Part shown: positions 3,451-29,400 of the stretch, piece after piece
How positions within the stretch are numbered: position 1 is the stretch's first letter
Layout of the letters: every line of letters starts with the position of its first letter
Assembly: GCF_003428645.1 (NCBI RefSeq)
Contig: NZ_QVQH01000013.1
Coordinates: 1-64,000, forward strand
Length of the DNA stretch: 64,000 nt
Source: Geodermatophilus marinus
GTDB taxonomy: Bacteria; Actinomycetota; Actinomycetes; Mycobacteriales; Geodermatophilaceae
Reading direction: 5' to 3'
Made by a program: the position numbers and the translations under genes
Notes under the pieces: generated by a model
What the model was told of the DNA's origin: nothing
Seen by the model: the letters and a program-made list of their open reading frames with translations, nothing else
The model's database searches: none

Positions 3451-4911
3451 TCAGCCCGGCAGGAGAACAGCGAGCCAGACGCCCGACCAGATGCCGAGAA
3501 GCAGGGACGCGACGGCGGCCGTATGGAGAACGACGACCGGCTCGAGCACGACACGCTGCACCGTTCCCGCGGAGGTGCCCGGCCCCGTCCCCCGGGCAGC
3601 CGCCGTCGTGCTTTCGCTGGCGGCGACTCCCGTAGCGGCGGGAGCGATCCAGCGCAAATAGTAGAAGAGGCTCGCTACCGTGTTGATGGCTGCTACGACC
3701 ACCAACCAAGCAAGCCCGCCATCCCAGGCCGCCGCGAAAACGGCGAGCTTGCCGACGAAGACCGCCGTGGGTGGAGTGCCGACGAGGCCGAGCAGGCAGA
3801 CGACGAGGCTGACGACGAGCCATCGGTGGCGTCCGACCGCGGTCGCCCAGTCGGTGATCGTCCGGGCCACCGGGACCGCCGCGACGGCGGCGAAGGCGCC
3901 GATGTTGGTCACCGCGTAGCCGGCCAGGTAGATCGCCAGGGCCGGAACGGCGAGATCGGTGCGCGCGGCGACGGCGACGACCATGAAGAGGTAGCCGACC
4001 TGGCTGACCGTGGAGTAGGCCAGCAGGCGGAGTACGTCGGTCTGGTTGAAGGCGGCCAGGTTGCCCAGGGTCATGCTGGCCGCGGCGATGACGGCGACCA
4101 GGAGTGGCACGTCGAGCGGGACGTCGGCGAAGGGCTCGGCGAGCAGCCGGAAGGCCGCTGCCACCGCGCCGATCTTCGGGATCGTGGTGATGTAGGCGGC
4201 CATCGGCGGAGTGGTGCCGGCCGTGACGTCGGGAACCCAGAAGTGCACCGGGACGGCACCGGCCTTGAAGGCGACCCCGGCGAGCACGCCGAGGACGCCC
4301 ACCGCGAGCAGCGCCGGCGATGCCTCCGGGAGCTGCGCGGCGAGGTCGGGGTATCCGGTTGTACCGGCGGCGAGCACAAGGGCGGCGACGCCGACCAGCA
4401 TCAGCACGCCCACGAAGGCGCCCATCAGGTAGTACTTCATCGTCGCCTCGACACCTGCGGGGTCCTTGGCGAAGCCGGCCAGCGCGTACAGCGGGACGCT
4501 GGCCAGCAGATACGCGGCGACGAGCAGCAGCAGATCGCCGCTGGCGGCCAGCGCAATGCTGCCGAGCCCGCCGAGCAGCATGAGGACGTAGGCCTCGGTC
4601 TCCCGCGGATGTCCGGCCAGCGAGGCCGATGCCAGCCAGACCAGGACAGTCACACCGAGCGCGACCACGATCCGGACGACGCCGGTGGTGGTGTCAACGA
4701 CCCAGGTGCCCTCAAACACCCGCTCCGCCGGCTCGGACAGCGCGACAGCAGCGGCGATCGCACTGGCCAGGCAGGCGGCGGTGACCAGGAGCCGGACCCG
4801 CCACTGCCGGTGCTGCGGGGTCCAGAGGCCCAGCAGCAGGCCGCCGACGGCGCCGAGGAGCAGGAGCAGTTCGGGGAGCAGGGCGAGCACCCGCTCCCCG
4901 CCGCCGGACAT
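3451..4911 (-). CDS. nuoN: Complex I-like antiporter subunit NuoN
   Basis: A 486-residue, 14-helix membrane protein of the NuoN/MrpD antiporter family, last gene of the nuo-like operon. In complex I, NuoN is one of three proton-pumping subunits. The Lys-containing helices are recognisable (GVAFKAGAVPVHFWVPDV; GTTPPMAAYITTIPKIGAVA). The canonical Glu of the L-G-L-E-L-L-S-L-x-L-Y motif seems replaced: the corresponding stretch reads LVAAYLLASVPLYAL. ATG 4911 is taken as start; a GTG at 4920 overlapping the nuoM stop (GTGA) is equally possible and would couple the two genes. The C-terminal region carries a Ser/Thr/Gly-rich loop before the last helix. Confidence 0.85.
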   Translation of the reverse strand: MSGGGERVLALLPELLLLLGAVGGLLLGLWTPQHRQWRVRLLVTAACLASAIAAAVALSEPAERVFEGTWVVDTTTGVVRIVVALGVTVLVWLASASLAGHPRETEAYVLMLLGGLGSIALAASGDLLLLVAAYLLASVPLYALAGFAKDPAGVEATMKYYLMGAFVGVLMLVGVAALVLAAGTTGYPDLAAQLPEASPALLAVGVLGVLAGVAFKAGAVPVHFWVPDVTAGTTPPMAAYITTIPKIGAVAAAFRLLAEPFADVPLDVPLLVAVIAAASMTLGNLAAFNQTDVLRLLAYSTVSQVGYLFMVVAVAARTDLAVPALAIYLAGYAVTNIGAFAAVAAVPVARTITDWATAVGRHRWLVVSLVVCLLGLVGTPPTAVFVGKLAVFAAAWDGGLAWLVVVAAINTVASLFYYLRWIAPAATGVAASESTTAAARGTGPGTSAGTVQRVVLEPVVVLHTAAVASLLLGIWSGVWLAVLLPG

Positions 4912-4916
4912 GCCGG

Positions 4917-6515
4917 TCACCGGCCCACCAGCTCCACCACCGCCATGGCGGCCGGCTCGAGCACGTCCAGCAGGGCACGCGGGAGCAGGCCCAGTACCAG
5001 CGCGAGTACGAGGAGCGGGACAACCGATGCCACCTCGTGACCGCGCAGGTCCTGCATCCGGGTCGCTGTCCGCGGCTGGACGGCGGTCGCCGTCGTGCCG
5101 TCCGCACGGTCCGGACGCGGCCCCTCCGCCGGCTTGTCGGGGTCTGTCTCGGATGGGACGACGGTGTCGCCGGTGAAGAGCCGCTGCAGGGCCAGCAAGA
5201 AAAGTCCGGCGGTCACGAGAATGCCGACGACGGCGATCACCGTGGCCACCGGCGCGGCCTGAAGCGCACCGGTGAACACCTGAAACTCGGCGATGAACCC
5301 GGAGAAGCCGGGCAGCCCCAGGGAGCCGAACGCGGCGACCGCGAAGCAGGCGGCGAAGACCGGCGCCGGCCGGGCCAGTCCACCCCACCGGTCGAAGGCG
5401 TAGGTGCGTCCACGGGACCACAGGACGCCGCTGAGCAGGAAGAGCGCGCCGGTGAGCAGGCCGTGGCTGACCATCTGGTACATCGCCCCGACCGTGGCCA
5501 CGGTCCGTGCCCCCTCGTCGGCGGAGGCGACCAGGCCGGCTGCGCCCAGTCCGAGCAGCACGTAGCCCATGTGGTTGACCGAGGTGTAGGCGATCATCCG
5601 CTTGACGTCGGTCTGGGCCAGCGCCACGAACGCGCCCCAGAGCACGCTGATCACCCCGACGACGGCGGCGACCATGGCCCACCGCTGCCAGGCGTCGGGG
5701 AGGATCGGCATGGCGATCCGCACGAACCCGTAGGTGCCGAGTTTGAGCAAGATCCCGGCGAGGACGGCGGACCCGGCGGCCGGTGCGTCGGTGTGCGCGT
5801 CGGGCAGCCAGGTGTGGAACGGGAACAGCGGCGTCTTCACCGCCAGCCCCAGACCGATCGCCAGCAGGACCAGCCCTCCGGCGACCGGGGAGTCCGCGAG
5901 CGGCGGGTTCGCCGCCAGCGCCACCATGTCGAAGGTGCGCTCCTCGCTGCCGAGGAACAGCCCGATGAAGCCGACGAGCAGCGCGAGTGACCCGATGAAG
6001 GTGTAGAGGAAGAACTTCAGCGCGCTGCGCCGGGCGTTGCCGTGACCCCAGCCGGCGATGACGAAGTACATCCCGACGATGGACAGGTCGAAGAAGACGA
6101 AGAACAGGATCAGGTCGAGCGAGGCGAACGTGCCCATGCACGCGGTCTGGAGGAAGAGGAACAGCGCGGCGTAGGTGTGCGGCCGGTCCGGTTCGCGGAG
6201 TGAGTAGATGGCGCAGGCCAGGAACAGCACCCCGGTCAGGGCCAGCAGCGGCAGGGAGAGCCCGTCGACGCCGACGTGGTAGCCGGCGTCGACGGTGGGG
6301 ATCCACTGCAGGTCGGCCTCGTACGCCAGGCCGTCGACGACGCCCGAGGCGCCCTCCCCTGGCTCGAAGCCCCACCACATCCAGCCGACCAGCGCCAGGT
6401 CGACGGCGGAGGCAGCCACCCACACCCCGATCGCCGCGCGACCGGGGACCCTCGGGACTGCCAGCAGCACACCAGCAGCCAGCAACGGCAGGAAGATCAC
6501 GACGGTCAGCAGCAC
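4917..6515 (-). CDS. nuoM: Complex I-like antiporter subunit NuoM
   Basis: A 532-residue polytopic protein of the NuoM/MrpD family. The conserved core AVKTPLFPFHTWLPDAHTDA (pumping Lys on the discontinuous helix) and QTDVKRMIAYTSVNHMGYV (second Lys helix) are intact. The usual Trp-Glu pair at the helix-5 charge centre appears as FFDLSIVGMYFVIAGWG, so Glu is replaced by Asp. The GTG start at 6515 overlaps nuoL's stop region and has GGTGAGG about seven bases upstream. A hydrophilic insert of about 45 residues (ETDPDKPAEGPRPDR) lies near the C-terminus, which is longer than in typical NuoM. It would act in the cytoplasmic membrane as part of the ion-translocating arm. Confidence 0.9.
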   Translation of the reverse strand: MLLTVVIFLPLLAAGVLLAVPRVPGRAAIGVWVAASAVDLALVGWMWWGFEPGEGASGVVDGLAYEADLQWIPTVDAGYHVGVDGLSLPLLALTGVLFLACAIYSLREPDRPHTYAALFLFLQTACMGTFASLDLILFFVFFDLSIVGMYFVIAGWGHGNARRSALKFFLYTFIGSLALLVGFIGLFLGSEERTFDMVALAANPPLADSPVAGGLVLLAIGLGLAVKTPLFPFHTWLPDAHTDAPAAGSAVLAGILLKLGTYGFVRIAMPILPDAWQRWAMVAAVVGVISVLWGAFVALAQTDVKRMIAYTSVNHMGYVLLGLGAAGLVASADEGARTVATVGAMYQMVSHGLLTGALFLLSGVLWSRGRTYAFDRWGGLARPAPVFAACFAVAAFGSLGLPGFSGFIAEFQVFTGALQAAPVATVIAVVGILVTAGLFLLALQRLFTGDTVVPSETDPDKPAEGPRPDRADGTTATAVQPRTATRMQDLRGHEVASVVPLLVLALVLGLLPRALLDVLEPAAMAVVELVGR

Positions 6516-6517
6516 GA

Positions 6518-8455
6518 CTACCTCACCACGAGCAGGAGGACGAGCAGGAACCCCAGACCGACGACGGCCTGGGCGTAGTACTGGTGCAGCAGCCCCGTCT
6601 GCGGACGGCGAGCAGCGCCCCCCGCGTGGCGGAACGCCCGCGCCATGCCGCGGACGGCGCCGTCCACCACGTCGGTGTCGATGCGCGCGGAGCCGGCCGC
6701 GGTGCGGCGGGTCGCTGCGGCGACGCCGGACACCGCGCCGCCCAGGACGCCGTCGTCCGCCCGGGATGCCATGCCGGCGAGCCGACGGGCGCCGAGGGCC
6801 ACCCCCACGACCGCCCGGTCGATCACCCTGTCGTCCACGGTGGCCAGCGCCCGGGCTAGCGCCATCGCCGGTCGTGGCGAGAGCAGCCGTCCCAGCCCGG
6901 CCCACGACGCAAGCGGCCCCCGGGAGAGCTGCTCCGTGACGGCAGGGCGGGCCCGGACCACGGCGACGGTCAGCCCCAGGGCCACCAGCGCGAGCGCCCC
7001 GGAGAGCAGCAGCTCCCCCAGCCCCGGGGACGGCTCCCCTCCCACATCCAGGACCGCCTTGAGTTGCTCTGCCACGGCCGGCAGCGCGAGCACACCCAGC
7101 CCGGCGGCGAACACGGCCAGCACGCCGGCCACGACCGTGGTCAGGGCCGGGACGCGCCGGGTGCCCGGCTCCTCCTCGTCGAACGCCTCGTCCCCCGCCG
7201 GCCTGGCGAGGACGACGGCCAGGATCCGACCGGCGTAGACCGCCGAGACCGCGGCGGCGGCGAGGCCGACGATGTTCAGCGCGGTCCCGTCGACACCGGC
7301 GAGTACCTCGTCCTTGGTGGCCCACAGCGATAGCGGCGGCACGCCGGCCAGCGCGAGGGCGGCGACGGTGGCCGCTGCCCCGATCCCCGGATACCGACGG
7401 GCGGCGCCACGCAGGCCGGCCAGCTGCTTGGTGCCCAGCGCGGTGAGCCAGGCCCCGGCGGCGACGAACAGGCCGGCCTTGACCGCGGCGTGCGCGACCA
7501 GCTGGGCGGTGCCGCCAGCGGTGGCACCCACCCCGGCGGCGAGGACGACGAAGCCGATCTGCGCGGCGGTGCTGGCCGCGAGCAACTGCTTGAAGTCGGT
7601 CTGCGCCACGGCCACCGCACCCAGGACCAGCGCGGTCATCGCCCCGGCCCACGCCGCCGCCGTCGCGGCCCAGCCGGTCGCGGCGAAGAGCGGCTGCATC
7701 CGGATCAGCAGGTAGCCGCCGGCGGCCACCATCGTCGCCGAGTGCAGCAGCGCGCTCACCGGGCTCGGTCCCTGCATCGCCGCCGACAGCCATCCGGAGA
7801 AGGGCAGCTGCGCGGACTTGCCGAGTGCGGCGACCAGCAGGCCGGCGGCGGCCACGTCCGCCCAGCCGCCGCCCGCAGTGTCCAGGTCTGCCAGCACCAG
7901 GCTTCCGGGCGCGGCCAGTGCCGCCCCGGCGGCGACGTACAGGCCGAGGTCACCGGCCCGGGTGGTCACGAACGCCCGGGTGCCGGCGGCCAGCTTGCCC
8001 GGCTCGTCCCAGTGGTAGCCGATGAGCGCGTAGGAGGTCGCGCCCATCACCTCCCAGGCCAGCAGCAGCGCGGGCAGGGTGGCCGCGGTGACCGTGGCCA
8101 GCATGGCCGCGACGAACAGCAGCAGGTAGCCGAAGAACCGCCCCCGAGCGGCATCCGCCGGCAGGTCCACGACGGCGAACACGGTGACCAGCAAGGCGAT
8201 GCCGGCCACCAGGACGACGAGCACGGCGGAGAGCCCGTCGACGACGAGGCGCAGATCCCCGCCCTCGACGATCCCGAGGAACGGCATGGAGACGCTCGGT
8301 CGGGCAGCCGCCACCAGGATGGCGAGGACGATGGCGACGCCGGTGGCACCAACGGCGACCGGACCGGCGGCGCGGTCGGCCCGCCGACCGGTAGCCAGCA
8401 GCCCCGCGCCAGTCAGGGCGGGAAGCAGCGCCAGGGCGCCGAGGACGGCGCTCAT
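6518..8455 (-). CDS. nuoL: Complex I-like antiporter subunit NuoL
   Basis: A 645-residue membrane protein. It keeps the NuoL core: LLLAWEVMGATSYALIGYHW (helix-5 Glu), GKSAQLPFSGWLSAAMQGPS (Lys plus the broken helix), SALLHSATMVAAGGYLL and QTDFKQLLAASTAAQIGFV. Beyond the 14-helix core there is a long C-terminal extension ending in a final hydrophobic helix (GFLLVLLLVVR), matching the lateral helix HL plus terminal TM of genuine NuoL and distinguishing it from Mrp antiporters. The start ATG 8455 overlaps the nuoK stop (ATGA). Ion-channel residues therefore look functional even though the operon lacks the electron-input module. Confidence 0.9.
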   Translation of the reverse strand: MSAVLGALALLPALTGAGLLATGRRADRAAGPVAVGATGVAIVLAILVAAARPSVSMPFLGIVEGGDLRLVVDGLSAVLVVLVAGIALLVTVFAVVDLPADAARGRFFGYLLLFVAAMLATVTAATLPALLLAWEVMGATSYALIGYHWDEPGKLAAGTRAFVTTRAGDLGLYVAAGAALAAPGSLVLADLDTAGGGWADVAAAGLLVAALGKSAQLPFSGWLSAAMQGPSPVSALLHSATMVAAGGYLLIRMQPLFAATGWAATAAAWAGAMTALVLGAVAVAQTDFKQLLAASTAAQIGFVVLAAGVGATAGGTAQLVAHAAVKAGLFVAAGAWLTALGTKQLAGLRGAARRYPGIGAAATVAALALAGVPPLSLWATKDEVLAGVDGTALNIVGLAAAAVSAVYAGRILAVVLARPAGDEAFDEEEPGTRRVPALTTVVAGVLAVFAAGLGVLALPAVAEQLKAVLDVGGEPSPGLGELLLSGALALVALGLTVAVVRARPAVTEQLSRGPLASWAGLGRLLSPRPAMALARALATVDDRVIDRAVVGVALGARRLAGMASRADDGVLGGAVSGVAAATRRTAAGSARIDTDVVDGAVRGMARAFRHAGGAARRPQTGLLHQYYAQAVVGLGFLLVLLLVVR

Positions 8456-8769
8456 CCGCGCAGGTCCGACGCCATGTCGATCATGTCGAGCTGTCGAGCT
8501 CGGTAGAAGGCGACGGTGACGGCGAAGCCCATGGCCATCTCCACCGCCATGACCACCAGGGCGACGACGACCAGCACCTGGGCGTCGGGCAGCTCCGGCG
8601 CGAGGAAGTACCAGGCCGCTCCCCCGGCCAGCAGCACACCGTTGAGGACGAGTTCGAGGCCCATCATCACCATGACGATCGTCTGCTGGGACAACGCCCC
8701 GAACAGCCCGACACCGATCAGGCCGGCGGCGACGGTCAGCACGATCTGCAGCACCAGCTCGGCGGTCAT
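8452..8769 (-). CDS. nuoK: Complex I-like subunit NuoK
   Basis: A 105-residue protein with three predicted membrane helices, the usual length of NuoK/MrpC. The typical Glu-containing helices are visible (IVMVMMGLELVLNGVLLAG and VALVVMAVEMAMGFAVTV); in NuoK these two membrane-embedded glutamates are needed for energy coupling. Both ends overlap neighbouring genes by four bases (ATGA with nuoJ and nuoL), implying translational coupling and stoichiometric expression. Confidence 0.92.
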   Translation of the reverse strand: MTAELVLQIVLTVAAGLIGVGLFGALSQQTIVMVMMGLELVLNGVLLAGGAAWYFLAPELPDAQVLVVVALVVMAVEMAMGFAVTVAFYRARQLDMIDMASDLRG

Positions 8770-9347
8770 CGGCGCAGTCCCCCGGACACCGGGTCATCCG
8801 GGCGCTGCGAATCCAGCCGCGGGCCGAAACGGTCGTAGCGGCCGCGCGCGGTGGCCAGGACGGTGCCGGCCAGGATCGTGGCGAACAGCCCGATGCCGAT
8901 CACCAGCATGACGAGCATGTGGCTGCCCATGATCGCCTCACCGAGCTGGCGGGTGCTGTCAGCCGGGCGGGAGGTGTCCCGGGTCGGCCAGTCGATCGTC
9001 CAGATGCCGACGACGAGGACGACGAACGCACCCGCACCCGTCACGGCCGAGCCCTTGGCGTTGTGCACCATCGTCATCGGCATAAGCCCGGCCGGGTTCA
9101 TCATGAACATGATCATGAAGACGGCCATGATCGCCATCTCGATCGTCATCATCAGCGCGGTCACGACGGCCAGGTAGACCAGGTCGAGGGCGAGCAGGAT
9201 GCCCGCCACGGCGAGGAACGACGCCAGCAGGGCGAAGGTCGCCCGTGCCATCGAGTCGACGACGAAGACGGCGACCCCCGCGGCGACCGACAGGACCCCT
9301 AGGACGGCGACGGCCGTGATTGCCCAGCCGGAGAGATCGCTCAGCAT
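8766..9347 (-). CDS. nuoJ: Complex I-like subunit NuoJ
   Basis: A 193-residue protein with five predicted membrane helices. The first helices read VLSVAAGVAVFVVDSMARA and FALLASFLAVAGILLALDLV, the hallmark NuoJ region (in canonical NuoJ: R-N-P-v-h-a-a-l-f-L), here with the Asn-Pro replaced by Asp-Ser. A Met-rich helix follows (MMTIEMAIMAVFMIMFMM), even richer in methionine than usual. NuoJ lies next to NuoK and NuoA in complex I and contains the pi-bulge helix that couples quinone chemistry to pumping. It starts ten bases downstream of the nuoH stop. Confidence 0.85.
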   Translation of the reverse strand: MLSDLSGWAITAVAVLGVLSVAAGVAVFVVDSMARATFALLASFLAVAGILLALDLVYLAVVTALMMTIEMAIMAVFMIMFMMNPAGLMPMTMVHNAKGSAVTGAGAFVVLVVGIWTIDWPTRDTSRPADSTRQLGEAIMGSHMLVMLVIGIGLFATILAGTVLATARGRYDRFGPRLDSQRPDDPVSGGLRR

Positions 9348-9357
9348 CGGCTCCTCC

Positions 9358-10296
9358 TCACGCGTAGAACCCGTTCAGGACGAGGACGGCGACGACCAAC
9401 GCCTGCAGCAGCGTCAGCGGGACGAGGACCATCCAGCCGACCTCCACCGTGCGGTCGGGCCGCAGCACCGGCATCCGTCGTCCCACCCAAACCAAAGCAG
9501 CGACGACGGCCAGCGTCTTCAGCAGGTGCCACAGTGGGCCGGGCAACCAGGGGCCGGAGTCGCCCCCGAGGAACAGCGCCGCCGCCATGGCCGCGCTCGC
9601 GCCGAGGAAGACGGCACGACCGGCCTCCACCAGCAGCCGGTCCACCCCGGACAGTTCCGAGGTGACGCCGCCGGCGATGTCGGCTGCGGCGGGTGCGGCG
9701 AACGGCCCCCAGAAGGCGAAGGCCGCGGCGCTGGCCACGAAGATCACGAAGGCGACCGGCATCGTGACCACGAACCACAGGCCCTCCTGCGCGGCCACGA
9801 CGTCCGTCGTGCGCAGTGAGCCGGCCGCCAGGCCAGCCGTGATGAGCGCGAACATCAGCGGCAGCTCGTAGGCCAAGCCCTGGGCGAGGAATCGGTATCC
9901 ACCGGTCAGCGCATGGACGGCGTTCGGGCCCCAGCCGACCAGCCACACCGCCGCCCACAGCAGTGCCTCCATGGCGTTGAACCACACGAGATCGGCGCTG
10001 GTCGACCACAGGGTCCGGCCAGCCACGGGTACCACCGCCAGAGACAGCAGCGCCAGTGTCGGCACAGCGACGCAGCCGATCCGCCACAGCAGCCGATCCG
10101 CCGCCAGCGTCGTCCGCCGCTGCTCGACCAGCAGACGCGCGCTCGAGCGGATCGGCTCGACAGCGGCCCCCGATGCGCCGAAGACGACGACGCGGTCGAC
10201 CACCGCCACCACGAGACCGAGGACAAGTCCCAGCCCCACGACCCCGAGGACCGCCGGGGCCAGCCCCCACGCCTCCGCCAGAGTCTGCTCAGGCAT
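9358..10296 (-). CDS. nuoH: Complex I-like subunit NuoH, quinone-site protein
   Basis: A 312-residue, eight-helix protein of the NuoH/ND1 family, the subunit that normally forms the quinone channel with NuoB and NuoD. Recognisable landmarks are a second helix with DRVVVFGASGAAVEPIR after it, and the late segment ELSGVDRLLVEAGRAVFLGA followed by AALFLGG. In canonical NuoH that late segment is much more acidic (EAESELVxGxxxEYSxxxF, with further Glu/Asn). Here most of the conserved charged quinone-pocket residues are replaced by small hydrophobics, so electron transfer to quinone is doubtful. The start overlaps the preceding gene by eight bases. Confidence 0.82.
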   Translation of the reverse strand: MPEQTLAEAWGLAPAVLGVVGLGLVLGLVVAVVDRVVVFGASGAAVEPIRSSARLLVEQRRTTLAADRLLWRIGCVAVPTLALLSLAVVPVAGRTLWSTSADLVWFNAMEALLWAAVWLVGWGPNAVHALTGGYRFLAQGLAYELPLMFALITAGLAAGSLRTTDVVAAQEGLWFVVTMPVAFVIFVASAAAFAFWGPFAAPAAADIAGGVTSELSGVDRLLVEAGRAVFLGASAAMAAALFLGGDSGPWLPGPLWHLLKTLAVVAALVWVGRRMPVLRPDRTVEVGWMVLVPLTLLQALVVAVLVLNGFYA

Positions 10297-11593
10297 GCAG
10301 GTGCTCCGGAGCCGACACCGCGGACACGGGGCTGAGGTCGAGGCTGGCCACGAGGAGCCGGGCGCTCCCGACTTCCGCGCCCTCCACCAGAGCCGCGACC
10401 TCGTCCAGTGACATCGCGGGCAAGTCCTCGACCGGCTGCCCCGACGCCATGTCGCACCAACGCCTGACCCGGTCCAGGGCGTCTCCCCCGGACCCGCGCC
10501 TCCCAATGCCCCCGGCCGTCCACGCCAAGGTCCGCGAACGGCTCACCCGCCGCGCCACGGCCTTAGCGAGCCGTTGCGCCTCATCTCGATCGGCCCCTTC
10601 GGCTACCCCGTCCCGGGCGCGGCGCGCGTCTCGGGCGGCGGTCGGCCAGCCGGCCACGTCCAGGAAGCGGGCGAGCCGGTCGAGTGCGGCCCCCTGGGAG
10701 TCGGACTGCTGTTGAGCGGCTGGGAGGATGCCGGCGTCGAGCCAGGTCAGCTCTGCAGAAGTGAGGACGTCACCCTGCAGCTCCGCCCGCAGGACCAGCC
10801 CCGTCGGCCAACCCGGCAGCACTGGCCCGAGCGCCACCTTGAGGACATCGAGTTCGAGGCCGTCCCGATCGGGGCCTGTCATGGCCATGGGCAGCCCGGC
10901 GACCTCACCACCGTGGTGCATTCCGTGGTCCATGCCCTCGTGACCACCACCGCCGTGGTCCATGCCCTCGTGACCACCACCGCCGTGGTCCATGCCCTCG
11001 TGACCACCACCGCCGTGGTCCATGCCCTCGTGACCACCACCGCCGTGGTCCATGCCCTCGTGACCACCACCGCCGTGGTCCATGCCCTCGTGACCACCAC
11101 CGCCGTGGTCCATGCCCTCGTGACCACCACCGCCGTGGTCCATGCCCTCGTGACCACCACCGCCGTGGTCCATGCCCTCGTGGCCGGCGTGGCCCATGCC
11201 CTCGTCGTGGGCGTCCTCGTCCTCGTCGTTGCTAAGCAAGGAGGCCGGCGACGGCCGACCGTCCTCCTTCGTTCCTGATTCGGCCGGCCGGACCAGCGCA
11301 GCTCGGCCCTGGTCCAGAGCGACGGCAACGTCACCGGTGCCCTGCACTTCCACTCGGCGCCGCGGCTCGGGGACCTGGCTCCACAGCACGTCGACGGCTT
11401 CTGCAAGCTCCGGTCCGGGTTCGCCGAGGACGACCAGCAGGTCGGTGTCCGCAGGTGACACGGCGCACGGCCAGCCGCGCCGGTCCAACTCGGCCTCGAC
11501 GGACCACCGGAGCGTCGTCGCACCCGGGGCGTCGACGAGCAGCACCCGCGGCCTCGCCAGCGCCCAGTTCCGCACTCGGGCGATCAGGTCCAT
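10289..11593 (-). CDS. Degenerate NuoB/NuoD-like fusion with a His/Met-rich metal-binding repeat
   Basis: The 434-residue product occupies the place of nuoB-C-D. Residues 1-100 match the NuoB layout (RVRNWALARP, then LLVVLGEPG and LWSQVPEPRRRVEV, cf. canonical LIVAG and YDQMPEPKW) but have none of the cysteines that hold cluster N2. Residues about 125-235 are a hydrophilic linker with nine HEGMDH hexapeptides separated by GGGG, ending GMHHGG: a strong candidate Cu/Zn/Ni-binding array. The following segment (GLELDVLKVALGP, LVLRAELQGD, LTWLDAG) resembles the N-terminal beta-domain of NuoD, while the rest is helical. Classified by position and pattern, not by a database match. The start overlaps nuoA and the end overlaps nuoH. 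Confidence 0.75.
   Translation of the reverse strand: MDLIARVRNWALARPRVLLVDAPGATTLRWSVEAELDRRGWPCAVSPADTDLLVVLGEPGPELAEAVDVLWSQVPEPRRRVEVQGTGDVAVALDQGRAALVRPAESGTKEDGRPSPASLLSNDEDEDAHDEGMGHAGHEGMDHGGGGHEGMDHGGGGHEGMDHGGGGHEGMDHGGGGHEGMDHGGGGHEGMDHGGGGHEGMDHGGGGHEGMDHGGGGHEGMDHGMHHGGEVAGLPMAMTGPDRDGLELDVLKVALGPVLPGWPTGLVLRAELQGDVLTSAELTWLDAGILPAAQQQSDSQGAALDRLARFLDVAGWPTAARDARRARDGVAEGADRDEAQRLAKAVARRVSRSRTLAWTAGGIGRRGSGGDALDRVRRWCDMASGQPVEDLPAMSLDEVAALVEGAEVGSARLLVASLDLSPVSAVSAPEHLHA
10931..11180. repeat. 30-bp minisatellite encoding HEGMDHGGGG, eight perfect units
   Basis: Eight identical 30-bp units fill 10931-11170, and a ninth begins with CATGCCCTCG at 11171-11180 before the sequence diverges. 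Each unit encodes one HEGMDHGGGG decapeptide on the minus strand. Complete identity, including third codon positions, indicates very recent expansion or active homogenisation by slippage or unequal exchange. Copy number is probably variable between isolates and could be mis-assembled from short reads. Confidence 0.95.
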
Positions 11594-11925
11594 CGCAGCG
11601 CACCTTCACGCCAGACGTAGGTGACACCGACGAGCAGCACGGCGAGGAAGCCGAACATCTCGACGACGGCCGTCGTCCCCATGTCCGCGACCACGACCGC
11701 CCACGGGTACATGAAGATCATCTCCATGTCGAAGGCCAGGAAGAGGACCGTGACCGCGTACCACCGCGCGTGGTAGCGAGACACGGCGTGCTGCTGTGGA
11801 AGCAGGCCTGACTCATACGGCAGCACGGCGGCGGGCCCCCGGGCGGTGCGCAACGCCGCCGACAGCGCGTACAGCCCGACGATCCAGGCCACGACCAGGA
11901 CGGCCAGCGAGAGCAGCGCAACCAT
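11584..11925 (-). CDS. nuoA: Complex I-like subunit NuoA
   Basis: A 113-residue protein with three predicted membrane helices, first gene of the nuo-like operon. The diagnostic segments are LPYESGLLPQ (canonical PYECGFxP) and FLAFDMEMIFMYPWAVV (canonical FDVExxFLYPWAV). The Cys of the conserved ECG loop, which faces the quinone cavity in complex I, is Ser here. The gene overlaps the NuoB/D-like gene by ten bases. The 177-bp gap upstream, containing a dyad, separates it from the arsR-type gene reading in the same direction. Confidence 0.88.
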   Translation of the reverse strand: MVALLSLAVLVVAWIVGLYALSAALRTARGPAAVLPYESGLLPQQHAVSRYHARWYAVTVLFLAFDMEMIFMYPWAVVVADMGTTAVVEMFGFLAVLLVGVTYVWREGALRWT

Positions 11926-12102: not shown

Positions 12103-12480
12103 TTAATCGTCGTCGGGCGCCGCTTCCGAGAGGACGACCAACTGGCGGAGACAGTGCTCCCGCAGCGGCTCGGGAAAGCCCTCGGCCAGGCGGTAGTACA
12201 CGACGCGACCCTGCTTCCGGTTGGTCACCAGTCCCGCCGTGCGAAGCAGCCGCAGGGCATAGCCGACGGCGTCCTCGTTGGCCTCCAGGGCCAGAGCCAG
12301 GTCGCCGACGCAGAGCTCCTCGACCATGTCGAGCGCGAATAGCACGCGGGCCCGGGTGGGATCGGCCATCAGGCTCAGCACGCTGGTCAGCTGGGCGGCT
12401 TCTTCCCGGCTGGGCAGCCGGGCACGGGCGTGCGCGACACGTTCCGGGTCGACCGGATGGGCGTGGTCAGGTTCGGACAT
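12103..12480 (-). CDS. ArsR/SmtB-family metal-responsive repressor
   Basis: A 125-residue winged-helix protein. The HTH core is clear: VLSLMADPTRARVLFALD, then ELCVGDLALALEANEDAVGYALRLL as recognition region, then LVTNRKQGRVVYYRL as the beta-wing. The ELCVGDL motif sits where ArsR/CadC proteins carry the alpha-3 metal-binding Cys, here a single Cys. A C-terminal helix has a His-Cys pair (PLREHCLRQL), and an N-terminal His-rich tail (SEPDHAHPVDPERVAHARAR) may add ligands. Such repressors leave DNA on binding metal. It is upstream of the nuo-like genes in the same direction and divergent from the Csp3-like gene, so it probably controls both. Confidence 0.85.
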   Translation of the reverse strand: MSEPDHAHPVDPERVAHARARLPSREEAAQLTSVLSLMADPTRARVLFALDMVEELCVGDLALALEANEDAVGYALRLLRTAGLVTNRKQGRVVYYRLAEGFPEPLREHCLRQLVVLSEAAPDDD

Positions 12481-12517: not shown

Positions 12518-12598
12518 CTGCGGGTACCGCCGGAATCGTCGGCGTCCGATCCGGGCGACATCCGAGCCGTCCGGCGCCGAGAAACCGAGGAGGCAACC

Positions 12599-13006
12599 AT
12601 GACCGTGGCAGCCCAGATGCTCGACACCTACCCCAAGGACCTCGGCGGGGTGGACAAGCAGAAGCTCCTTGAGTGCATCGAGGCCTGCTTCGAGTGCGCC
12701 CAGGCGTGTACCGCTTGCGCCGACGCCTGCCTCAGCGAGGACATGGTCGCCGAGCTGACCAAGTGCATTCGCACCAACGCCGACTGCGCCGACGTCTGCG
12801 ACACGACCGGCCGTGTGCTCTCCCGGCACACCGGCTACGACGCCAACCTCACCCGGGCGGTGCTCGAGGCCTGCGCTGCCGCCTGCAAGGCGTGCGGTGA
12901 CGAGTGCGAGAGCCACGCCTCGATGCACGAGCACTGCCGGGTCTGCGCCGAGGCCTGCCGGCGCTGTGAGCGGGCGTGCCGGGACCTCATCAGCTCGCTG
13001 GGCTGA
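12599..13006 (+). CDS. Four-helix-bundle copper storage protein, Csp3-like (DUF326)
   Basis: The 135-residue product has 18 cysteines in CxxxC/CxxC spacing along predicted amphipathic helices (CIEACFECAQACTACADAC; CAAACKACGDEC; CRVCAEACRRCERAC). This is the pattern of Csp proteins, whose four-helix bundle is lined with Cys thiolates and stores many Cu(I) ions. There is no signal peptide, so it belongs with the cytosolic Csp3 type rather than the exported Csp1 type. GAGGAGG five bases before ATG is a strong ribosome site. It is divergent from the arsR-type gene across a palindromic operator candidate and lies beside other copper genes. Confidence 0.88.
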   Translation: MTVAAQMLDTYPKDLGGVDKQKLLECIEACFECAQACTACADACLSEDMVAELTKCIRTNADCADVCDTTGRVLSRHTGYDANLTRAVLEACAAACKACGDECESHASMHEHCRVCAEACRRCERACRDLISSLG

Positions 13007-14429: not shown

Positions 14430-14696
14430 TCAGCTGCAGCCGCAGCCACACCCGGACGTCTGGTCACCAGCCCCTGCGAGCAGGTTGGCGGGCTCGGCTA
14501 CCTGATACCCGGCTTCTTCAACGGCAGCGCGCACGGCACCGTCGTCCACATCGGCCACGGCGCTGACGGCGAGTCCACCGGTGGCGAGATCGACGCTGAC
14601 GTCGGTGACGCCGGGGACCTGGCGGACCTCTTCGGTCACGGAGTTGACGCAGTGGCCGCAGGTCATGCCGACGACGCTGTACGTGGCGGTGCTCAT
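14430..14696 (-). CDS. copZ: CopZ-like copper chaperone (heavy-metal-associated domain)
   Basis: The 88-residue protein is a single HMA domain with ferredoxin-like fold: TYSVVGMTCGHCVNSVTEEV has the copper-binding MxCxxC, followed by GVTDVSVDLATGGLAV and VRAAVEEAGYQV. Such proteins carry Cu(I) in the cytosol to CopA and to CsoR. A C-terminal tail SGCGCGCS adds three cysteines as CxCxC, which is not part of the usual fold and may add a second metal site. ATG 14696 is preceded by GAAAGGA at good spacing; the longer reading from 14732 is less likely. The partner pump gene downstream is reduced to a fragment. Confidence 0.9.
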   Translation of the reverse strand: MSTATYSVVGMTCGHCVNSVTEEVRQVPGVTDVSVDLATGGLAVSAVADVDDGAVRAAVEEAGYQVAEPANLLAGAGDQTSGCGCGCS

Positions 14697-14763
14697 CTCG
14701 AGTTGTCCTTTCGATTCCTCATGTACGTGCATTGCCGTGGATGTTCGTTCTGGTGGTCCTGTC

Positions 14764-18905: not shown

Positions 18906-19952
18906 TCAGACGATGCGTCGCGCCCCCGCGTAACCCGACATGTCGACAGAGCCGACCTTGACAGGTTCACCGAACGTAGATGCGTGGACCATCTGTCCAC
19001 CGCCGATGTAGATGCCGATGTGGCTCACCGGACTGTAGAAGTAGACGAGGTCCCCCGCCTGGAGCTCCGCCCTCGGGACCGCTTGGCCCATGGTGGCCTG
19101 CATCCTGCTGGAGTGCGGCAGCGAGATCCCCGCTGCTGCGAAGGCGTATTGGGTAAGCCCGGAGCAGTCGAAGGAGTCGGGTCCCGCCGCGGCCCAGACG
19201 TAGGGGTCCCCGAGCTGGGCCATTGCGGTGTCGACGGCAGCCTGCGCCGCAGCGCTGTCGGCCACCACTGCACTGGGCGGCGGCGCGGCCAGCGTCCGTC
19301 CGCCGTGGGCAGCGTCGGCCTCTTCCCGCTGCGCGGCTGTCAGCGCCGTGTACTGGGCTTGGTATTCGGCGATCTCCGACTGCAGGTCCGCCTGCTGAGC
19401 GGCGACCTCGTCAACCTGCTGCTGCGCCTCGGCAGCTGCCTTCTCGGCCGCCGCCTGCGCCTCCTCGGCCGCGGTCCGAGCGATCGCGACTCGGTCGAGA
19501 ACGTCGTTGTGGTGGCCGGCCACTGATTCCAGGAGGGCGATCCGATCGAGGAACTCCTCGGGGGATCCGCTGGTCATGAACGCCTGGACGGCGCCGAGTC
19601 CGTCTCCCGTGTACGCGGTCTGTGCGACGGCTGCCAGTTGGTCACTCAGCGCGGCCAGTGCCGCCTCGGCTGCGGCGACTTCATCCTGAGCCACCGCCGC
19701 CGCCATCTGCTGTGACTCGAGGTTCTCGCGCGCCTCGTTGAACTGCTCGGTGAGAACTTCCAGCTCGTGGCCGCGCTCGGCGACGAGAGAAGCTGCATCC
19801 TCGGCTGTGACGGGGTCACCCGGCGCTGCCGCCGCAGGGGCGGAGGCGAGATCGATCCCGACGACGGCGATGACAGCCAGGAGCAGAGTGCGCTTTCGCC
19901 ACTGTGGGCCGGAGCGGGTCACGGGCAGGGAGTCGCGATGGGTAGTCGCCAC
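18906..19952 (-). CDS. NlpC/P60 peptidoglycan endopeptidase (RipA-like)
   Basis: The 348-residue product has a signal peptide (LAVIAVVGIDLASAPAAAA), a long coiled coil of Ala/Glu/Gln-rich helices (about residues 50-210) and a C-terminal NlpC/P60 domain with the catalytic Cys in DSFDCSGLTQYAFAAAG, and the His in VSHIGIYIGGGQMVHAS. These enzymes cut peptide stems of peptidoglycan, and the coiled coil normally occupies and controls the active site, as in mycobacterial RipA/RipC. It is divergent from the BlaI-type regulator, separated by a 450-bp region with an inverted repeat, which suggests stress-responsive control. Confidence 0.88.
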   Translation of the reverse strand: MATTHRDSLPVTRSGPQWRKRTLLLAVIAVVGIDLASAPAAAAPGDPVTAEDAASLVAERGHELEVLTEQFNEARENLESQQMAAAVAQDEVAAAEAALAALSDQLAAVAQTAYTGDGLGAVQAFMTSGSPEEFLDRIALLESVAGHHNDVLDRVAIARTAAEEAQAAAEKAAAEAQQQVDEVAAQQADLQSEIAEYQAQYTALTAAQREEADAAHGGRTLAAPPPSAVVADSAAAQAAVDTAMAQLGDPYVWAAAGPDSFDCSGLTQYAFAAAGISLPHSSRMQATMGQAVPRAELQAGDLVYFYSPVSHIGIYIGGGQMVHASTFGEPVKVGSVDMSGYAGARRIV

Positions 19953-26263: not shown

Positions 26264-26483
26264 CGCTTCCTCCGCTCTCTCAGCTGACCGACCGCCGGAT
26301 CGTCACACGCCCTCATGACACGGCTGCCGGCTCGAGCGTCACCCCAGCAGGCCGACGTCTGGAGCCGGCGTCACCCCGACCCCTCCGACCTGACACACCT
26401 CATGCATCACGGCCCGGACCGCCGCTTGTCGATGCGCCGCGGCGCCGGAGCGTGGCAGAGGTGCTCGCGATTGTCGGGTCGTG
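26264..26483. promoter_or_regulatory. traA upstream region with two GTCACCCC motifs; possible oriT
   Basis: This divergent gap contains GTCACCCC at 26338-26345 and again at 26370-26377, in the same orientation and 32 bp apart (three helical turns). The same octamer is clustered upstream of the type IV secretion operon. The gap is also the most likely place for the transfer origin, since MobF relaxases often nick near their own gene, but I could not identify a nick site. Confidence 0.5.
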
Positions 26484-29400
26484 ATGACGCTGCACAAGCT
26501 CACCGCGGGGGACGGATACACGTATCTGACCCGCCAGGTGGCTGCGCACGACGCCACGACCCGCGGGTTCGACAACCTGGGCGACTACTACAGCGAGAAG
26601 GGCGAGGCTCCGGGCGTCTGGATGGGACGCGGGCTTGCCGCCGTGCCCGATTTTACGGTCGGTGACCGGGTCACCGAGGCGCAGATGGTCGCGCTGTTCG
26701 GGGAAGGGCGACACCCCAATGCCGACCAGATCGAGCGCGATGCACAGCTTGCTGGGAAGACCCCCCAGCAGGTCGATCAGGCCAGCCGCCTGGGCGCGCC
26801 CTACCGGATTCACGAGCAGGCCAACGTGTTCCACCGCCGCTCGGCAGGGGCGTTCCGCGACCACAACACCGCGCTCGGCCTGCCCGCCGACACCCCCGTG
26901 CCGGCCGAGGAACGAGCCCGCATCCGCACCGAGCTGGCCTCGACGATGTTCGTCGAGACCTACGGGCGTCCGCCGGCCGACGCCCGCGAACTCTCCGGTC
27001 ATCTGGCCCGCATCTCCCGGCAGGCCACCACCGCGGTCGCCGGGTACGACCTGACGTTCAGCCCGGTCAAGAGCGTCTCCACGCTGTGGGCGATCGCCCC
27101 GCCAGAGGTCGCAGCCGTCATCGAGCAGGCGCACGCCGACGCGGTGGCAGACACCCTGACCTGGTTGGAGGACCACGCCGCCTACACCCGCACGGGCCGC
27201 AACGGTGTGGCGCAGGTGGAGGTACGCGGGCTGATCGCGGCGGCGTTCACCCATCGCGACTCACGGGCCGGCGACCCGGATCTGCACACCCACGTGGCCG
27301 TCAGCAACAAGGTGCAGACCCGCGACGGGCGGTGGCTAGCGCTCGACGGTCGGCTGCTCTACAAGAACAACGTCACCGCCTCCGAGCGGTACAACACCCG
27401 CCTGCAGGCTCTGCTCACCGAGCGGCTCGGCGTCCGCTTCGCCGACCGTCCCGGCGCCGACCCGAGCAAGCGCCCGGTGCGCGAGATCGTCGGCGTCGAT
27501 GGCGAGCTGCCCAGCCTCTGGTCGTCGCGGCGGGCGTCGATCGATAGCCGCCGCGCGGAGCTGTCGGCGCAGTTCCAGGCCGACCACGGGCGACCGCCGA
27601 CGCCGAAGGAGGCCGTGTCCCTGGCGCAGCGGGCCAACCTCGAGACCCGGCAGCGTAAGCACCAGCCCCGCTCCTACGCCGAGCAGCGCGCCGCCTGGCG
27701 CACCGAGGCGCTGGCGGTGCTGGGCGGCGAGAGCGGCCTGCGCGACTACCTCCGGGGTGCACTCGCCCCCCGCCGCGGACCCGAGGCGAAGCGCCCGACG
27801 CGCAGATGGATCGACCAGACCGCCCAGCACGTGCTGTCGGCGGTGCAGAGCTCGCGTGCGACCTGGCAGGTCAACCACGTCCGCGCCGAGGCCGAGCGGC
27901 AGGCTCGCGCCGCCGCGATCCGGCTGACCGACCTCGACGGAGCCACCGACGCCGTCGTCGAGAGAGCGCTGTCCCTGTCGACGCCGTTGGGCAGCCGTGA
28001 GCCGGTGGCCGAGCCAGCCGCGCTACGCCGCTCGGACGGCAGCTCCGTCTACACCGTGGCCGGTTCGGCGCTGTACACCTCGACCGAGATCCTCGCCGCC
28101 GAGCGCGCCATCCTCGCCGCGGCCGGACGCCGTGACGGACGCGTGGTGCCGGCTGCGGCCGTCGACGTCGCACTGCTGGAGTCCACCGCCAACCGGATCG
28201 AGCTCAACCCCGGCCAGGTGCAGCTGGTCCGCCAGCTGGCCACCTCCGGCACCCGGGTGCAACTGGCACTGGCCCCGGCAGGCACCGGGAAGACCACCGC
28301 CCTGCGTGCGCTGTCCGCGGCATGGCGGGCCGACGGTGGCAACGTCGTCGGCCTTGCTCCCTCGGCAGCTGCGGCGGCGGCGCTGGGTGAGGAGGTCGGC
28401 ACCGACACCGACACTCTCGCCAAGCTGATCCACGCACTATCCACCGGCAACGCCGTCCCGCCCTGGGTCAAGCGCATCGGCCCGGACAGCCTCGTGGTCG
28501 TCGACGAAGCGGGCATGGCCAGCACCCTCGACCTGGCCCGGGCGATCGCGTTCATCACCGAGGCCGGCGGGTCGGTCCGGCTGATCGGCGACGACCAGCA
28601 GCTGGCGGCGATCGGCGCCGGCGGAGTGCTGCGCGACATCGCCGCCGCTCACGGTGCGGTCACCCTCTCGCAGGTCCTGCGCTTCACCGACCCCGATACC
28701 GGTGCTCCTGACCACGCCGAGGGCGCCGCGTCCCTGGCGTTGCGCGACGGCGACCCGGCCGCCCTCGCCTACTACATCGATCACGGACGCGTGCATGTCG
28801 GGGACCTGGCCACGGTGACCGACGACGCCTACACCGCCTGGTCGAACGACCGCGCCGCCGGGCGCGACGCCATCATGCTGGCGCCCACCCGCGAGCTGGT
28901 CGCCGAACTGAACACCCGCGCCCGCCGCGACCGCCTCGCCCAGCAGAACGGCGCGATCGGTCCCCAGGTCACCCTCGCCGACGCTTCGCAGGCCTCCGCC
29001 GGCGATGCGGTCATCACCCGCCGCAACGAGCGCACCCTCCCGATCGGCGCCACCGACTGGGTCAAGAACGGCGACCGGTTCACGGTCACCGCCGTCCGCG
29101 ACACCGGCGCCCTCGACGTCGTCCACCAGCGCACCGGACGGCGCCTCACCCTGCCCGCCGACTACGTCAGCGACCACGTCAGCCTGGGCTACGCCACCAC
29201 CGTGCACGGCGCGCAAGGCCTCACCGCCGACACCTGCTACACCGTCGCAACCGGCGAAGAGTCGCGCCAACTGCTCTACGTCGCCCTGACCCGCGGCCGA
29301 CACGCCAACCACCTCTTCCTCACCACCGCCAGCGACGGCGACCCGCACAGCGTGATCACCCGCGACGCGCTGCTGCCGCCCACCGCCGTCGACGTCTTGA

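Follow-up and report, generated by a model that had tools for sequence, protein, structure and literature searches.

What does the membrane arm of respiratory complex I do when its operon holds no module for NADH oxidation? This question is raised by an operon in a stretch of 64,000 nucleotides from Geodermatophilus marinus (contig NZ_QVQH01000013.1, positions 1 to 64,000; this whole stretch, with a G+C content of 70.7%, is called the window below). Eight minus-strand genes, running from 11925 to 3451, encode in this order NuoA-like (11584-11925; Pfam PF00507, E=6e-28), NuoB-NuoD-like fusion (10289-11593), NuoH-like (9358-10296; PF00146, E=3e-42), NuoJ-like (8766-9347; PF00499, E=5e-12) and NuoK-like (8452-8769; PF00420) proteins, and the antiporter-type subunits NuoL (6518-8455; PF00361), NuoM (4917-6515, GTG start; TIGR01972, E=8e-144, above cut-off) and NuoN (3451-4911; PF00361). 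All seven Nuo subunits were recognised by Pfam, and no gene for NuoB, C, D, E, F, G or I lies within the operon; a preliminary description of this DNA, which had placed NuoA-, H-, J-, K-, L-, M- and N-like proteins in one operon lacking NuoE, F, G, I and C, agrees with these coordinates and assignments. The operon displays homology to complex I, loss of most redox and quinone-site residues, a conserved methionine ladder and linkage to copper genes. We propose, giving it an even chance, that it encodes a complex-I-derived translocator of Cu(I) or Ag(I) which is coupled to protons and probably exports the metal. A wider scenario is put forward a little more tentatively: complex I may have given rise, probably in a single conversion, to a transition-metal pump free of redox chemistry, in which the headpiece would act as a copper antenna, the E-channel as a methionine wire and the old antiporter subunits as the source of power, mobile on plasmids and spread over two phyla.

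What is new here is a set of conserved methionines in NuoA, NuoJ and NuoK that are absent from ordinary complex I and occur together with largely kept pump residues of NuoL, NuoM and NuoN. For NuoJ, 119 variants were compared with 51 canonical proteins, and four variant rows, unaligned in the third transmembrane helix (TM3), were excluded from the TM3 counts. M66, M67, E70, M71, M74 and M78 are present in all 115 variants aligned there, while the canonical residues are V/I at 66, Tyr at 67 (50/50), which we take to be the pi-bulge residue of TM3, Ala at 70 (50/50), I/V at 71, Leu at 74 (50/50) and Val at 78 (50/51). M82, M83, M91, M93 and H95 are conserved in 114-116 of 117-119 variants, M144 in 114 of 115, and M140 and M147 in 87 of 88 members of the first variant set. 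The NuoJ model, of moderate confidence (mean predicted local distance difference test score, pLDDT, 74), shows residues 57-83 as one helix and 84-96 as a loop, whose charges suggest a cytosolic position. The seven TM3 positions lie within a 160-degree arc, and 0.7% of random draws are equally tight, for positions that were picked afterwards; M80, which is Met in canonical proteins too, and M83, at the helix end, are omitted from this test. The new methionines of NuoK stand at 33 and 74 (119/119 variants), 35 (114) and 78 (113), with E39 and E77 kept. In NuoA, Met69, Met72 and His52 are found in 108/108 variants and His46 in 94/107; the TM2 acids D66 and E68 are retained, and the Cys of the ECG loop is gone (ESG in the window), as had been noted earlier. 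Across all seven subunits there are 57 variant-specific conserved columns, and Met accounts for 15 of 31 in NuoA/J/K versus 0 of 26 in NuoH/L/M/N (Fisher p=3e-5, by a test conceived after the ladder was seen). Met and His at these positions would suit Cu(I) or Ag(I).

The second line of evidence concerns the protein encoded between nuoA and nuoH, in which the preliminary description had seen a degenerate fusion that replaces NuoB and NuoD, has no Fe-S (iron-sulphur) cysteines and contains nine HEGMDH hexapeptides. Exactly nine such units were counted, and there are just two cysteines, at positions 43 and 380. No Pfam family matched the window fusion at E<=0.1, and its matches to NCBIfam NuoB profiles are weak (TIGR01957, E=0.0043, residues 32-81). 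In an AlphaFold model, for which 55 family members were used, 237 of 434 residues reach a pLDDT of at least 90 and 110 fall below 50; the ends are folded confidently and the repeat is disordered. When this model was used in Foldseek, the 50 matches listed of 382 were all complex I or its relatives, and among the matches listed the N-terminal part corresponds to NuoB chains and NuoD chains are matched over up to ~400 columns, with E-values that are weak throughout (best 0.0087, none <0.001). In some relatives this ancestry is evident, with Pfam matches to Complex1_49kDa (NuoD) down to E=4e-16, and the end of NuoD is retained in the fusions (ASLDLSP in the window versus ASLDPVMGGCDR in the same genome's own NuoD). 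Cys is found at the three testable N2 columns in none of the 76 fusions of close relatives and in 31/31 canonical NuoB proteins; these columns, which we take to be ligands of the N2 Fe-S cluster, are the first three of four, the fourth lying outside the aligned stretch. The modelled fold indicates that the protein is a degenerate NuoB-NuoD, as first described. Its quinone loop is also changed: the His found in 19/19 canonical NuoD proteins is Leu in 66/76 fusions and His in 1/76, and the second His is Pro in 71/76. This HPxxHG loop and the acidic loop of NuoH presumably form the quinone site, and of the altered NuoH residues reported earlier most acids are indeed replaced across variants, in the window as elsewhere, with the exception of Asp200, which is kept in 38/119.

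The middle of the fusion is variable. In the window, the His/Met linker is encoded by a perfect 30-bp tandem repeat (10923-11182, minus strand; TRF, 8.7 copies, 100% matches), the copy number of which probably varies among strains. A His/Met-rich linker is found in 60/76 close-group fusions by an H+M test that 1/117 canonical subunits passes, and one clade bears heavy-metal-binding domains (HMBD) in place of, or besides, this linker. The HMBD family PF19335 was found in 4/9 relatives' proteins scanned, with five copies in Sulfitobacter, and was not found in the window fusion by the Pfam scan; the HMBD region of relatives also yields a weak CusB match. On the Sulfitobacter plasmid (L224, 9319-11731), the NuoB-like part forms a separate gene and the five HMBD domains sit in the NuoD-like part, an arrangement that is perhaps the state preceding fusion. 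A GEGMMGG- or GNGMMGG-type motif with no His-rich part occurs in L203, L205, L206, L209, L210, L212, L223, L225 and L240-L243, with GRPMAM after the motif in most. The HEGMDH repeat was rejected as the defining feature of the family, being variable and, in one clade, absent; the repeat protein, around which the system had first been described as built, differs among members, and the Met ladder hardly does. The variable linker looks like a buffer rather than a fixed redox site.

The third element is the antiporter subunits, the pumping residues of which had been described as largely intact. This is true of NuoL, where E135, K213, K326 and K381 are retained, and of most of NuoM (K229, K260 and E412), in which E145 is Asp in 99/112 variants; it is not true of NuoN, in which the TM5 Glu is lost (Leu/Val/Phe in 112/113 variants, the window included) and K217 is Glu in 17/113. 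These positions are assumed by us to be the antiporter pump residues. It is proposed that the NuoB/NuoD headpiece, with no redox chemistry, may now bind soft metal ions in the cytosol, and that the lateral E-channel of NuoA, NuoJ and NuoK may have turned into a path that is lined by methionines and carries Cu(I) or Ag(I). Metal from the headpiece would be passed to the cytosolic loops, namely His46/His52 of NuoA and Met83-His95 of NuoJ, would then travel along the TM3 Met ladder of NuoJ and would exit past Met147, Met144 and Met140 of TM5. Proton movement via NuoL, NuoM and NuoN would drive the transport, coupled by the retained acids of NuoA and NuoK, and the proton gradient would power copper removal from the cytosol. 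Assembly into one complex, the identity of the metal, its path, its direction and the coupling are what we infer from sequence.

The preliminary description had proposed to look for other genomes with the order nuoA-(repeat protein)-nuoHJKLMN. When 84,980 species genomes were scanned with a NuoH alignment, 504 related stretches came up, of which the best 80 were retained. The arrangement is conserved beyond chance: all eight genes stand in order in 69 of these 80 NuoH-fetched loci (68 by an automatic order test and L071, the deviation of which was judged an artefact of open reading frame (ORF) ends; in a few loci a gene is split into two ORFs). Ten of the 80 loci are cut by contig ends, and L095 is the sole locus in which H, J, K and L alone were found within 20.8 kb. 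With a NuoJ alignment, the family was detected at 114 bits or more in 35/396 Actinomycetota, the next best value being 44 bits, and in 9/398 Pseudomonadota, the Lysobacter centre included. The fusion protein gave 74 matches among 298 genomes, 52 of them at E<=1e-12; the other 22 are weaker, lie mostly over the repeat and look like chance matches to His/Met-rich stretches. Plasmid carriers belong to Mycobacterium, Pseudonocardia, Arthrobacter, Rhodococcus, Curtobacterium, Halomonas, Sulfitobacter and Acuticoccus. In a NuoM tree (77 rows, NuoL outgroup) variants stand apart from canonical NuoM, the support being moderate (87/92 and 92/84), and three changes are needed for the ten rows that bear the label Pseudomonadota, which points to several transfers. 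Descent from complex I is well supported by this tree together with the Foldseek and Pfam matches of the fusions. The window genome itself has the operon twice, the other copy lying on a different contig, with a NuoH 76% identical to that of the window; in this copy (L112, from ~7500 to past 12789, contig C56) the fusion linker is poorer, its best 40 residues holding 3 His and 4 Met. A NuoH 100% identical to that of the window lies on a contig of Blastococcus sp. TF02A-30.

The genes near the operon form the fourth line of evidence. The repressor behind which the operon had been said to lie is an ArsR/SmtB-type gene upstream of it on the same strand (12103-12480, minus; NF033788, above cut-off). 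A divergent gene for a Csp1-like/DUF326 protein of copper-storage type follows (12596-13006, plus; PF03860 above cut-off, TIGR04401 E=2e-8, below its cut-off), and an HMA-domain protein of CopZ type is encoded at 14430-14702 (minus; PF00403, E=2e-16), in keeping with the copper/mercury region described earlier. Copper core genes, defined as CopA, CsoR, multicopper oxidase, CopB and Csp types, were found in 43/80 genome loci, 12/20 mid-tier loci and 3/8 Pseudomonadota loci of the variant, with queries drawn from the family's plasmid neighbours and the window, a set that is not blind and by which ATPases for other metals may count as CopA. None was found in 20 canonical nuo loci; since the longer canonical operon leaves less flanking DNA, 20 arbitrary 20-kb regions of ten carrier genomes were added, and these gave 0/20 as well. 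CopA-type genes lie near 24/80 and 11/20 copies, CsoR-type near 25/80 and 10/20, multicopper oxidase genes near 7/80, 4/20 and 2/8, and Csp-type storage genes near 20/80 and 2/20. Annotated copper or heavy-metal genes are near the operon in 8/9 plasmid regions inspected, which were picked, not at random, from 29 records with a NuoH match.

Several observations weigh against a copper or silver exporter. NuoA, NuoJ and NuoK carry the lateral proton path of complex I, the E-channel, and because it runs sideways there, the outward route has to be supposed. A His/Met-rich part or HMBD is present in just 8/20 mid-tier and 4/11 Pseudomonadota fusions (5/11 counting L224), by the same H+M test, with L224 counted by its NuoB-like gene alone and L204 being a partial gene; the fusions of one clade have the short GEGMMGG motif alone. 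No copper core gene was found within the available DNA of 37/80, 8/20 and 5/8 variant loci, some of them on short contigs, and the plasmid region of Rhodococcus gave none either. What a second exporter would add is not obvious where CopA-type ATPases are already encoded nearby. Finally, the NuoN pump module may be impaired, because of its lost TM5 Glu and the substitution of K217. The first interpretation of the locus, a metal-responsive ion or proton translocator, or a proton-coupled metal transporter, evolved from complex I, is nevertheless supported by the descent, the Met ladder, HMBD in some members and the copper neighbours, and these sequence features favour a metal transporter over a plain ion translocator.

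The strongest competitor, in our estimate unlikely, is a proton or sodium pump or antiporter for salt and pH homeostasis in which metal is merely a switch. The largely retained NuoL/M/N residues speak for it, and this is how the operon has entered the literature: in the passages concerned, nuoA-hypothetical-nuoHJKLMN is counted among marine adaptation genes of Salinispora, Streptomyces and Kocuria, where it is held to pump protons for life in seawater (PMC3314556, PMC4018334, PMC6002675, PMC6676996, PMC8622039). The partial nuoAHJKLMN operon of marine actinomycetes (PMC3314556, PMC6676996) has the same order, including, between nuoA and nuoH, a hypothetical protein (PMC6676996) which was described as without homologues, and, judged by gene order rather than alignment, it is very likely the same family. 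However, no redox module is present to power such pumping, the variant-specific Met are restricted to NuoA, NuoJ and NuoK, the operon is linked to copper genes, and soil, river sediment and sputum are also among the sources of the plasmid carriers. One of the published carriers originates from copper-rich mine fluid, where the operon was explained by osmotic stress (PMC6676996), and it is listed in K. marina SO9-6, marked 'copper miner' (PMC6002675). The passages on the published operon give neither a link to copper transport nor the identity of the fusion, and literature searches on the operon or a copper link returned no paper tying it to copper transport.

Somewhat less probable again is a proton-coupled copper importer or loader that supplies cuproproteins such as the neighbouring multicopper oxidases. 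Neither the Met ladder nor the antiporter subunits give a direction, and multicopper oxidase and Csp-type genes do occur among the neighbours; the CopA- and CsoR-type genes are commoner and point to detoxification, and the headpiece is cytosolic by homology, that is, on the export side. A redox enzyme in which copper replaces Fe-S and electrons pass from Cu(I) to quinone is very improbable: the likely copper ligands do occupy the former Fe-S/quinone place of the headpiece, but the NuoD loop histidines and most of the NuoH loop acids are replaced, and the buffer-like linker is not what a fixed redox site would look like. NuoB, NuoD and NuoF partners encoded elsewhere, a point raised by the preliminary description itself, were searched for in 16 carrier genomes, 12 of them Micrococcales, chosen because many members of this order are without complex I. 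None of the three was found in five carriers, namely Arthrobacter castelli (G1079), Arthrobacter sp. strains H5 (G1080), VKM Ac-2550 (G1088) and SF27 (G1089), and Agrococcus sediminis (G1087), an absence that is strong, not absolute, these five genomes being drafts; a sixth, Cryobacterium, gave no NuoF match, and the other ten match all three. Since five carriers gave no match, the operon is something other than a fragment of ordinary complex I, and a shared peripheral arm was rejected. A decaying remnant, or a membrane module borrowing a canonical peripheral arm, is thus the least credible account, for although NuoB/NuoD is degenerate, ten carriers have possible partners and the window genome has a canonical nuo operon with that genome's only NuoB match, the subunit residues are strongly conserved over two phyla, by which pseudogene decay was rejected, and the operon is found on plasmids of many genera.

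Further from the operon, beyond the Csp1-like gene, the window encodes two DUF305 proteins, the HMA protein, a thioredoxin-like protein, a DsbD-type membrane protein, a flavin disulphide reductase, which we take for a mercuric reductase by its C-terminal Cys pair, and a TrwC-type relaxase. The latter belongs to a protein of 1870 residues (26481-32093) in which TrwC relaxase, helicase-type and DnaG/Toprim primase domains are joined, and which suggests a plasmid or conjugative element. A c-di-AMP riboswitch (RF00379, 19967-20123, minus strand, 67.7 bits) lies directly upstream of an ORF (18906-19952) that resembles, by eye, an NlpC/P60 cell-wall hydrolase.

If the proposed metal translocator is real, a new class of metal transporter is carried on mobile elements, and the supposed proton pump of marine adaptation would be recast. 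The coupling of headpiece and antiporters in complex I is a long-standing question, and a natural version set off by metal binding in place of quinone reduction would allow coupling to be tested apart from redox chemistry. Among known systems, the operon is like respiratory complex I (NDH-1) in its NuoA, H, J, K, L, M and N homologues, the NuoB/NuoD fold of its headpiece, the NuoA/NuoK acids and the NuoL/M lysines; unlike it, the operon is without the NADH module, the tested Fe-S cysteines and most quinone-site residues, and adds the Met ladder in A/J/K and a metal-binding insert. Mrp-type Na+/H+ antiporters likewise use NuoL/M-like subunits in a non-redox role, but the operon has NuoA, H, J, K and N and a NuoB/D-like headpiece; within it, Pfam and NCBIfam gave NuoA/H/J/K and NuoM/NuoN types and no further genes, not the MrpA-G set. 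CusA, an HME-RND Cu(I)/Ag(I) exporter, has a fold unrelated to complex I, and the operon contains no RND-type subunit; the likeness is one of working analogy alone, for CusA moves Cu(I) and Ag(I) through a proton-driven methionine relay, as the ladder of NuoA, NuoJ and NuoK may do.

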